Assembly: GCA_003963455.1 (NCBI GenBank)
Contig: RXJA01000155.1
Span: forward strand, 1 to 64,000
Length of the DNA stretch: 64,000 nucleotides
Origin: Hyphomicrobiales bacterium
GTDB taxonomy: Bacteria; Pseudomonadota; Alphaproteobacteria; Rhizobiales; Rhizobiaceae
Direction: 5' to 3'
In this document: positions 38,944 to 42,410 of the stretch, piece after piece
Layout of the letters: every line of letters begins with the position of its first letter
Position numbering within the stretch: position 1 is the first letter of the stretch
Translations under genes and position numbers: made by a program
Notes under the pieces: generated by a model
Told to the model about the DNA's origin: nothing
The model's database searches: none
Seen by the model: the letters and a program-made list of their open reading frames with translations, nothing else

Positions 38944-39150
38944 TTATGGGGTCTGCGCCGTTTTGATCCACAGCCCCTTGCCGGACGCGGCGATACGCAC
39001 ATCTGTGATGACGTGGCGTGTTCTGTAGCCGCGCTCCAGTTCCCAGAGGCAGCCACCGCCCTCGCCTATAAATTCCCAGCCGTCTCGCTCCATGTCGCGA
39101 CGATCGCGGCGCACCTTGAGAACTTGGCGAGTGATCTGCGTTAGCTTCAT
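38944..39150 (-). CDS. Hypothetical protein (68 aa)
   Basis: MKLTQITRQVLKVRRDRRDMERDGWEFIGEGGGCLWELERGYRTRHVITDVRI. Confidence 0.6.
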   Translation of the reverse strand: MKLTQITRQVLKVRRDRRDMERDGWEFIGEGGGCLWELERGYRTRHVITDVRIAASGKGLWIKTAQTP

Positions 39151-39698
39151 CTAACCCTCCGCAGGTAATGATCCGATGCCCGCTGGCGATTGCGCTCACG
39201 AGCATTCGCAAGATCATAGCCGACGAGCGGGGGCGCCCCGGTGGCATCGCTGTAGCTGGCTATGGAGTGCAAAATTGACGTGTGGTCGCGATCGAACCAG
39301 TTCGCGAGCTGCGTGCTGGACAGCATCGGCTTGCGAGCCTTGATGAGATAGATCGCTTCGTTGCGGGCCCTGACGACGGGATATTTCCGGTTGTCGCCGG
39401 CCATATGGCTCGGACATACGTCGTGCTTCTGGGCGGTTTCGTCGACGATCTGGCGAGCCCATTCCGGCATATAGCGGCGCTTGAAGGTCAATAGCCCTTG
39501 ACGGCGCGCTTCAGCCCTCGCCTCGATATGCCTCTCTTCGTCGGCGCGCGCCCGTGCTTCATTGGCTCGTTGGATAAACTCCTTGGTATAGACGCTTTTC
39601 GCCGAGCGGACTCTGTCCCTGTGATCCTTGGCAAAGGCCTTGTGAACCGGGACAATTCGCTTTGCATCATAGACGGGCGGATAGGCGATGAGGCCCAT
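39147..39698 (-). CDS. DnaA domain IV-like DNA-binding protein
   Basis: RNEAIYLIKARKPMLSSTQLANWFDRDHTSILHSI resembles the DnaA DNA-binding signature. Confidence 0.7.
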   Translation of the reverse strand: MGLIAYPPVYDAKRIVPVHKAFAKDHRDRVRSAKSVYTKEFIQRANEARARADEERHIEARAEARRQGLLTFKRRYMPEWARQIVDETAQKHDVCPSHMAGDNRKYPVVRARNEAIYLIKARKPMLSSTQLANWFDRDHTSILHSIASYSDATGAPPLVGYDLANARERNRQRASDHYLRRVR

Positions 39699-40495: not shown

Positions 40496-40852
40496 TTATG
40501 CTGCTTCGAGTTCGATGCGGACTGCGCCGCCCTTGGTCGGTGCTTCCCTGCGGATGGCGATCTGCCATTTGGAATCGTCAACGCCGATCACGTCGGCTAT
40601 GCCGTCGAGATATGCTTTGGAGGAGGCTAGGCATCCATCGAGGTCGTGCTTATGCCGGTTTGGCGGATAGAAAATTGCGGTGACCTTCAGGTTCTCCGGG
40701 ATATCTGGATCGCCTTGGCGTAATCCGGCCTCTTTGGCACACCAGCCGGCCAGCATGCGGGCTTGCTTGGTGTCCTTTGCCTTGCGCGCCCAATGATCGC
40801 GGCAATTGGGGTGTAGGGATCTAGGCGGCCACGGGAGCGTTATCGCGATCAT
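40496..40852 (-). CDS. RusA-like Holliday junction endonuclease
   Basis: ITLPWPPRSLHPNCRDHWARKA...FYPPNRHKHDLDGCLASSKAYLDGIADVIGVDDSKW. Confidence 0.85.
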   Translation of the reverse strand: MIAITLPWPPRSLHPNCRDHWARKAKDTKQARMLAGWCAKEAGLRQGDPDIPENLKVTAIFYPPNRHKHDLDGCLASSKAYLDGIADVIGVDDSKWQIAIRREAPTKGGAVRIELEAA

Positions 40853-42210
40853 GCTGCCCTCGCTTCGGAAAGCCGCTCAACCATTTCGATGCGGCGACCG
40901 ATCCAGCGCATCGCGTTCACTGCCATGGAATTGCCAAGCGCTTTGTAGCGAGGACCGTCAGACGCTTCGGCCTGCCCGCGCCATGGAATGTTGGTGTAGC
41001 CGTCAGGGAAGCCCTGTAGGCGCTCGCATTCTGTCGGCGTAAGGCGGCGGACAGCCCAAGCCTCTTGGATGTAATCGCCGCCTTGGTTGCCTCCTACGGG
41101 GCCACCGGCCATGATAGGCTGCGCGACATCGACTTGACGGGCCTTGTAGTCCTTTCCGCTGTTCTGCGGCATGATTGACCATGCAACAGATTGGACATGG
41201 TGCCTTGCCTCTAGCGTGTAACTGACGCCCTCCTGCCATCCCTTTCCTTGCGGCCCGGCGTTTGGATTTTCTGATGTAGCGCGCTCTTGGATGGCTATTG
41301 CCGGCGGATGAGCTCCAGCGGCCAATGGATGGCATGGGTCTCCAGCTTTCGGCTGCGAATAGTTTGAACGGCTAGTGATCTGAGTCGTGTCAAAGGCGAC
41401 GATGTTAACGTCATCTTCCTGCCGCCGGCCTGCATAGCCACCCTTCCCCGAACTCTCCGCGCCGCGAGTCAGCGTCGAAGCGACTGGCCCCGCTATGAAC
41501 TCCATTTCGTTAGGGTCTAGGCGACCTGTGGCTGTGTTGCAGGCAGTGAGAGCGCGTGAGAGGTTATCGTCTGCGCCGCATGTTCCAACGCCGTTCGCAG
41601 TAAGGGCGGCAACTGACGCCCCCTTTTCTCGGCGCGGCGCAGAATCCCCCTGCATGCCTTCGGACTCAAGAAGTACCGCTGCGGCACGTCGCCAGTCTCC
41701 AAGATATCCGACAACGAACACACGCCGTCGTCTTTGAGGGACAGCCCTTGAATACCCGTCCACTCGGACAAATTGAGCGTCAAGCACTCGCCAGGCCGCA
41801 TGATACCCGAGTTCTTCCAACCCTCGGATAAAGGTTGCAAAGTCCCATCCTTTGCTTGACGACAGGACGCCGGGGACGTTCTCCCAAACCAGCCAACGGG
41901 GCTGATATCGTCTAGCGATGGCAAGATAGGTGAGCATGAGGTTGCCGCGCGGGTCAGCAAGTCCTTGGCGAAGTCCTGCGATCGAGAAGGACTGGCAGGG
42001 GGTGCCTCCGACAAGAAGGTCAATTGCGTCATCCGGCCAATCCTTGTATTTTGTCATGTCGCCTCGATTGGGCACTTCCGGGTGATGGTGAGCCAATACG
42101 GCGCTCGGGAACTTCTCGATCTCCGAGAGAAACGTTGCCTTCCAGCCGAGCGGCTTCCACGCCATCGATGCGGCCTCGATGCCTGAACAAACTGAGCCGA
42201 AGCGGATCAT
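40849..42210 (-). CDS. DNA (cytosine-5-)methyltransferase
   Basis: MIRFGSVCSGIEAASMAW (motif I), GGTPCQSFSIAGLRQG (motif IV), VWENVPG (VI), PQRRRRVFVVG (VIII). Confidence 0.93.
   Translation of the reverse strand: MIRFGSVCSGIEAASMAWKPLGWKATFLSEIEKFPSAVLAHHHPEVPNRGDMTKYKDWPDDAIDLLVGGTPCQSFSIAGLRQGLADPRGNLMLTYLAIARRYQPRWLVWENVPGVLSSSKGWDFATFIRGLEELGYHAAWRVLDAQFVRVDGYSRAVPQRRRRVFVVGYLGDWRRAAAVLLESEGMQGDSAPRREKGASVAALTANGVGTCGADDNLSRALTACNTATGRLDPNEMEFIAGPVASTLTRGAESSGKGGYAGRRQEDDVNIVAFDTTQITSRSNYSQPKAGDPCHPLAAGAHPPAIAIQERATSENPNAGPQGKGWQEGVSYTLEARHHVQSVAWSIMPQNSGKDYKARQVDVAQPIMAGGPVGGNQGGDYIQEAWAVRRLTPTECERLQGFPDGYTNIPWRGQAEASDGPRYKALGNSMAVNAMRWIGRRIEMVERLSEARAA
41517..42032 (-). CDS. Nested same-strand ORF (171 aa) inside the cytosine methyltransferase gene, different frame
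   Basis: MTQLTFLSEAPPASPSRSQDFAKDLLTRAATSCSPILPSLDDISPVGWFGRTSPASC...GVCSLSDILETGDVPQRYFLSPKACRGILRRAEKRG; recalled as a recurrent phage protein family. Confidence 0.6.
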   Translation of the reverse strand: MTQLTFLSEAPPASPSRSQDFAKDLLTRAATSCSPILPSLDDISPVGWFGRTSPASCRQAKDGTLQPLSEGWKNSGIMRPGECLTLNLSEWTGIQGLSLKDDGVCSLSDILETGDVPQRYFLSPKACRGILRRAEKRGRQLPPLLRTALEHAAQTITSHALSLPATQPQVA

Positions 42211-42410
42211 GCGAACAGCCGCCAAGCGCCCCAAGCAAGCAGGGCGATCGGGACCACACCGACAAGCCAGGCTCCTACCCAGATCATCCAGGTTACGGGG
42301 AGCGAGTAATGCTCGTCGGCTGGCTCGGGGATGTAGTGGCCGTACTCGTCGAGGACATAGCTTCCATCGAGGGCATTGATGCGCTGGCGGTGGTCTATGA
42401 GGGCGTTCAT
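42207..42410 (-). CDS. Small membrane protein
   Basis: C-terminal TM WMIWVGAWLVGVVPIALLAWGAW. Confidence 0.5.
   Translation of the reverse strand: MNALIDHRQRINALDGSYVLDEYGHYIPEPADEHYSLPVTWMIWVGAWLVGVVPIALLAWGAWRLFA

Follow-up and report, generated by a model that had tools for sequence, protein, structure and literature searches.

The C5-cytosine DNA methyltransferase gene of the window (the whole stretch of 64,000 nt that was analysed) contains a second gene in its +1 frame and, judged from sequence, the two are a true and widespread overprinted gene pair. The assignment follows from the open nested frame across relatives, the synonymous constraint, the selection acting on the nested frame, the enrichment of Shine–Dalgarno (SD) words and the +1 position held throughout. 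An earlier note on this DNA had described a 171-aa ORF, shifted by +1 and running from near motif IV to past motif VIII, and had suggested that related sequences recur in unrelated phages, again with methyltransferases. The ORF was confirmed at 41517–42032 on the minus strand. The recurrence was borne out at all 233 viral loci picked by similarity to the nested protein: each lies in the same relative frame, +1, of a methyltransferase, and the cases checked include dmt of phage P1. Our best guess, with moderate confidence, is that the nested protein would be a small methyltransferase subunit. The full reading, in which the pair is truly overprinted and the nested protein is a β-like small partner subunit of its own methyltransferase, is given a probability of about 0.45.

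40849–42210, minus strand: C5-cytosine DNA methyltransferase, the outer frame, 453 aa from the ATG at 42210 (PF00145, E = 1.3e-48; TIGR00675, E = 7.7e-48).
41989–42000, minus strand: methyltransferase motif IV (PCQS), from the translation; P71, C72 and Q73 are invariant, and the motif is within the overlap.
41707–41739, minus strand: methyltransferase motif VIII (PQRRRRVFVVG), where the alignment of the main chain to ordinary Dcm ends (hhalign).
41005–41049, minus strand: methyltransferase motif IX (RRLTPTECERLQGFP), from the translation, conserved columns R388–P402; in the outer frame and outside the overlap.
41517–42032, minus strand: overprinted gene, 171 aa, ATG start, in the +1 frame of the methyltransferase, with family-wide openness, synonymous constraint and purifying selection on the nested frame.

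Motif X is also present in the window methyltransferase. The ORF finder puts the start of the enzyme at a TTG codon (42234; ORF 40849–42234); translation more probably begins at the first ATG (42210). The SVCSGIEA sequence at the beginning of the enzyme is conserved among relatives. Neighboring genes code for a ParB_N domain, a DnaA C-terminal domain, a phage head–tail connector and an SLT domain, and they mark the locus as a prophage. The DnaA-type gene (39147–39698, minus strand) is a phage gene with the C-terminal helix-turn-helix domain (PF08299, E = 1.1e-9). Residues 201–372 of the methyltransferase (41095–41610), where the target-recognition region is expected, gave no confident fold with AF2 from a shallow alignment. 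The nested ORF is located wholly within the methyltransferase ORF, with its start offset by 202 nt (202 mod 3 = 1). It begins just upstream of motif IV and stops past motif VIII.

When the synonymous codons of the window gene alone were shuffled, the nested span acquired 3.45 stops on average and remained open in 1.0% of the shuffles. Taken by itself, the openness of this single gene is only moderate evidence beyond chance. Relatives were therefore needed in numbers, and two sets of them were used. The first was picked by similarity to the nested protein and carries an ascertainment bias, which the second, unbiased set answers. The query for this second set was the C-terminal part of the methyltransferase, beyond the overlap, so that the nested gene played no role in the choice; it yielded 160 loci, 136 of which have an intact methyltransferase. 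In this set, which is dominated by close relatives, one open +1 ORF matched by the nested profile was present in 134 of the 136 intact loci, against 10.9 expected from synonymous shuffling, and the other two show frame changes or a split. The nested frame is open in 65 of 66 distinct P1-like dmt genes, with a stop in the remaining one, and it is also open in phages of 35–45% GC. For 17 phage genes outside the training set of the profile, the real +1 frame scored 47–164 bits, above all 200 synonymous shuffles of each gene. An ordinary Dcm used as control gave 8.2 bits in its +1 frame, within its shuffle null. Ordinary methyltransferases have stops in the equivalent of the nested frame in most cases, and they do not have the nested C-terminal domain. 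A chance open frame in GC-rich DNA is ruled out by the synonymous shuffles and the low-GC relatives. Five loci considered as exceptions (L119, L137, L177, L187 and L219) were rejected as such; their frame changes moved both frames together.

Selection was measured by the ratios NN/NS and SN/SS, obtained from an OLGenie-like count over pairs of related sequences and not from full OLGenie. In the unbiased set, the nested-frame NN/NS, which is a dN/dS-like ratio, is 0.21 (0.14–0.35) in the overlap compared with 0.79 and 0.82 in the flanks. The SN/SS ratio in the same set is 0.43 (0.32–0.59) in the overlap compared with 1.24 and 1.99. At 50–60% protein identity, the third bases of four-fold sites in the unbiased set have an identity of 0.61 in the overlap and of 0.32 and 0.33 in the flanks; in the first set, at 60–70% protein identity, four-fold sites match at 73% versus 34% and 29%. 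Among the 66 P1-like dmt genes, four-fold divergence is 0.022 in the overlap versus 0.101 and 0.136 outside it. The codon-position pattern in these genes is reversed in the overlap, with the third position (0.046) below the first (0.061). In the first set, the same-codon constraint climbs at the nested ATG, has its maximum (0.93) at nested residues 112–123, and comes down to 0.31 towards the nested stop. The strongest signal is in the C-terminal domain.

41553–41717, minus strand: C-terminal domain of the nested protein, aa 106–160 (SLSDILETGDVPQRYFLSPKACRGILRRAEKRG...), the most constrained nested part, with NN/NS 0.14 and SN/SS 0.25.

Within aa 106–160, methyltransferase-only changes (0.237) exceed nested-only changes (0.140) in the unbiased set. 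Nested aa 2–45 show little selection (NN/NS 0.85). The nested frame is under purifying selection independent of the outer frame. The earlier note had proposed a true overprinted pair with both frames selected, and had named as evidence against it frequent nested-frame stops beside an intact methyltransferase, or synonymous variation that is not reduced in the overlap. Such stops are almost absent, and the reduction is strong and lies exactly over the overlap; the proposal thus stands. An explanation that involves no protein at all is very improbable and already largely refuted; selection would then act on RNA structure, on codon choice or on a regulatory element, and methyltransferase conservation and GC content would leave the frame open incidentally. 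This explanation can call on the long open alternative frame that a lone GC-rich gene can leave (P 0.01 for the window) and on the N-terminal part of the nested protein, which faintly matches ordinary methyltransferases through shared codons. It does not account for a selection that is codon-frame-specific by both ratios, for a constraint whose limits coincide with the nested start and stop, or for a frame that is open at low GC and scores above every synonymous-shuffle null.

The nested start is preceded by a candidate ribosome-binding site.

42041–42045, minus strand: Shine–Dalgarno sequence AAGGA, 8 nt ahead of the nested ATG (context acaaaatacAAGGAttggccggATG).

In the unbiased set, SD words are found at 58% of nested starts and at 13% of other start codons in the same frame (p = 3e-32). 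The lysine codon that forms the SD is AAG in 22 relatives and AAA in 2, whereas the lysine two codons upstream is AAG in 6 and AAA in 21 (Fisher, 6e-7). The nested protein thus appears to have its own translation start. The alternative is a programmed frameshift near motif VIII, which would produce a short methyltransferase isoform ending in the nested C-terminus, without internal initiation. Most of the selection is indeed in the nested C-terminal half, beyond motif VIII the nested C-terminal sequence carries on the Dcm chain (see below), and the chain is exchanged between frames at two loci (L339 and L119). A frameshift, however, would not require the whole upstream nested region to stay open, nor would it require the nested start to have a conserved, synonymously constrained SD, and we consider it unlikely. 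The SD enrichment and the AAG constraint favour internal initiation over frameshifting.

Using tblastn, the nested product was matched in at least 132 phage records and in at least 529 plasmid records, the latter being mostly P1-like elements. A low-GC nested query matched at least 210 phage records, mainly from Streptococcus, Lactococcus and Lactobacillus. All strong matches to the nested protein in 299 genomes of the source phylum sit inside methyltransferases, and no free-standing homologue was found in these genomes or among the 233 viral loci. Weak matches at L328–L330 and L332 were discarded as ordinary methyltransferases, in which conserved motifs give a faint +1 similarity. Two further loci (L027 and L065) were first read as having no methyltransferase, and it is present in both.

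The family has almost escaped annotation. The window nested protein has no match in Pfam, NCBIfam or a PDB sequence search, and none of 90 nested-family members has a match in Pfam. Its one PHROG match is PHROG_16143 (E = 1.5e-8, residues 51–126). This group, named 'DNA methyltransferase' and 139 positions long, also matches 19 of 58 nested C-terminal domains; it probably represents the overprinted protein, with a name inherited from the overlapping gene. In the record of Streptococcus phage MM1, the nested ORF appears within ORF13 as ORF14 (CAC48080, 'putative methyltransferase'), and in 813R1 it is annotated as a hypothetical protein. It is rare for a long same-strand overprinted gene to be conserved among very distant phages, and such genes are normally discarded by annotation programs. 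Since phage and plasmid records with the nested gene run to hundreds and the model phage P1 is among them, expression and function of the gene are open to direct test by synonymous stop codons. If the reading is true, many catalogued phage methyltransferases have been described with one component missing, which would affect the prediction of activity and studies of methylation and restriction.

The AF2 model of the nested protein has a confident helical C-terminal domain, with pLDDT of 93–98 at residues 121–150, and little else is confident. The domain is basic. Foldseek and the PDB sequence search did not identify a known fold for the protein. When the window enzyme family was aligned with ordinary Dcm by hhalign, residues 2–169 corresponded to Dcm residues 73–245 (motif I to the end of motif VIII), with nothing beyond. 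The nested C-termini of Gram-positive phages match Dcm residues 256–287, directly after motif VIII, with an hhalign E-value of 5e-5 and a score of 32.4; the best of 100 column shuffles reached 18.0. The match is weaker when all nested C-termini are pooled, with a score of 26.0 against 20.4 for the best shuffle. The Dcm of the IncHI2 plasmid has SLSDLLDPSVDSKYILSPK after motif VIII, in its own frame. This resemblance is short, about 25–30 residues, and was noticed before being tested. Its SLSD part overlaps the codons of motif VIII, and therefore some of the likeness could be coincidence. No significant match in Pfam or NCBIfam links the nested proteins to Dcm. We also considered homology of the nested N-terminus to nested ORFs bearing motif IX, on the basis of a match to L329, and rejected it; ordinary enzymes match nearly as well.

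The nested protein could instead be a separate accessory, acting as a regulator or inhibitor of the methyltransferase or against a host defence (one example is type IV restriction, which depends on modification and attacks 5mC DNA), nested so that both travel together. It is always in cis with the methyltransferase, is under strong selection and has a basic helical C-terminal domain with no recognizable enzyme fold, all of which would suit such a role. PADLOC and Pfam, however, gave no match of the nested protein to an anti-restriction or defence family, and the likeness to Dcm after motif VIII would have to be coincidence. Mobile anti-defence genes often have free-standing copies, and none was found here. 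We consider an accessory role somewhat less probable. A role as a methyltransferase subunit fits the sequence better than the regulation or anti-restriction suggested in the earlier note.

As such a subunit, the nested protein would initiate at its own ribosome-binding site within the methyltransferase mRNA; selection has preserved it in a very wide range of phage methyltransferases. The outer chain would provide the catalytic core (motifs I–VIII) plus motifs IX and X. The nested chain would provide the segment that connects motif VIII to the target-recognition domain in ordinary Dcm. Nesting would keep both parts linked and co-expressed, and we count the constant cis and +1 arrangement (233/233) in favour of the subunit, along with the Dcm alignments above and the two nested ORFs with motif IX described below. 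Against it, motifs IX and X are both present in the window methyltransferase itself, which may therefore work alone. The likely history would involve paired compensating frameshifts around the post-motif VIII segment. The outer frame would then have read new sequence, while the old segment survived in +1, where it acquired a start further upstream and turned into a polypeptide of its own. Tentatively, and at somewhat less than even odds, we suggest that the nested proteins are an ancient, almost unannotated family within the C5-methyltransferases of phages from several bacterial phyla. Their C-terminal domain would be a part of the enzyme that the main chain lost through the paired frameshifts and that the second frame retained as a trans-acting subunit. 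On the tree, which has several long branches, the nested-bearing label needs 3–4 changes, and nearly all nested-bearing enzymes are in one clade. Two enzymes of Gram-positive phages group with ordinary Dcm, apart from this main clade; there may therefore have been one ancient origin with losses, or several origins.

The window pair is similar to M.EcoHK31I in that a C5-methyltransferase has a second polypeptide in an overlapping alternative frame, +1 in the window; the small polypeptide of M.EcoHK31I is reportedly encoded in such a frame. M.EcoHK31I consists of two polypeptides, a large chain without motif IX and a small chain that carries it (Lee, Kam and Shaw 1995, as described in PMC3404938). 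Compared with that description, the large chain of the window keeps motif IX, and the 171-aa nested product does not have it. The nested protein of the window also differs in bearing a segment like that following motif VIII of Dcm. Since its outer chain keeps motif IX, the window pair is best regarded as a variant that would work like the M.EcoHK31I type and not as a member of it. Microcystis phage Mwe-JY08 (L460) and L329 have a nested +1 ORF with motif IX and an outer chain with motifs I–VIII and X but no IX, which is the split reported for M.EcoHK31I in the description cited (PMC3404938). In Mwe-JY08 (1–753), the motif IX ORF of 216 aa is only partly annotated.

ORF14 and ORF13 of phage MM1 have the same arrangement as the window pair, with a homologous product at the same position in +1 inside a C5-methyltransferase. 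MM1 differs in being the low-GC Gram-positive version with a shorter C-terminus, and neither the overprinted family nor this pair was found described in the literature searched. The ShiLan domain is an out-of-frame HNH endonuclease in phage methylases, a mobile insertion of sporadic presence (PMC11855218). It shares with the window pair a second protein in another frame of a phage methylase ORF, whereas the window pair is overprinted on core motifs, contains no HNH domain and occurs almost throughout its subfamily. Mycobacterium phage Thibault (L334, 896–2404) has an HNH endonuclease in another frame inside a methylase whose own frame is unbroken, and its gp104 is the nested C-terminal domain in its own frame. 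In Faecalibacterium phage FP_Toutatis (L339, 1611–3031), the enzyme is split; one ORF consists of the methyltransferase N-part and the nested C-part, and the other runs from motif VIII onward. The 'DNA methylase' genes gp79 and gp78 of Mycobacterium phage Twister (L459, 1401–2394) overlap by 50 nt and may be the two chains of a split enzyme in which the overlap is shorter.
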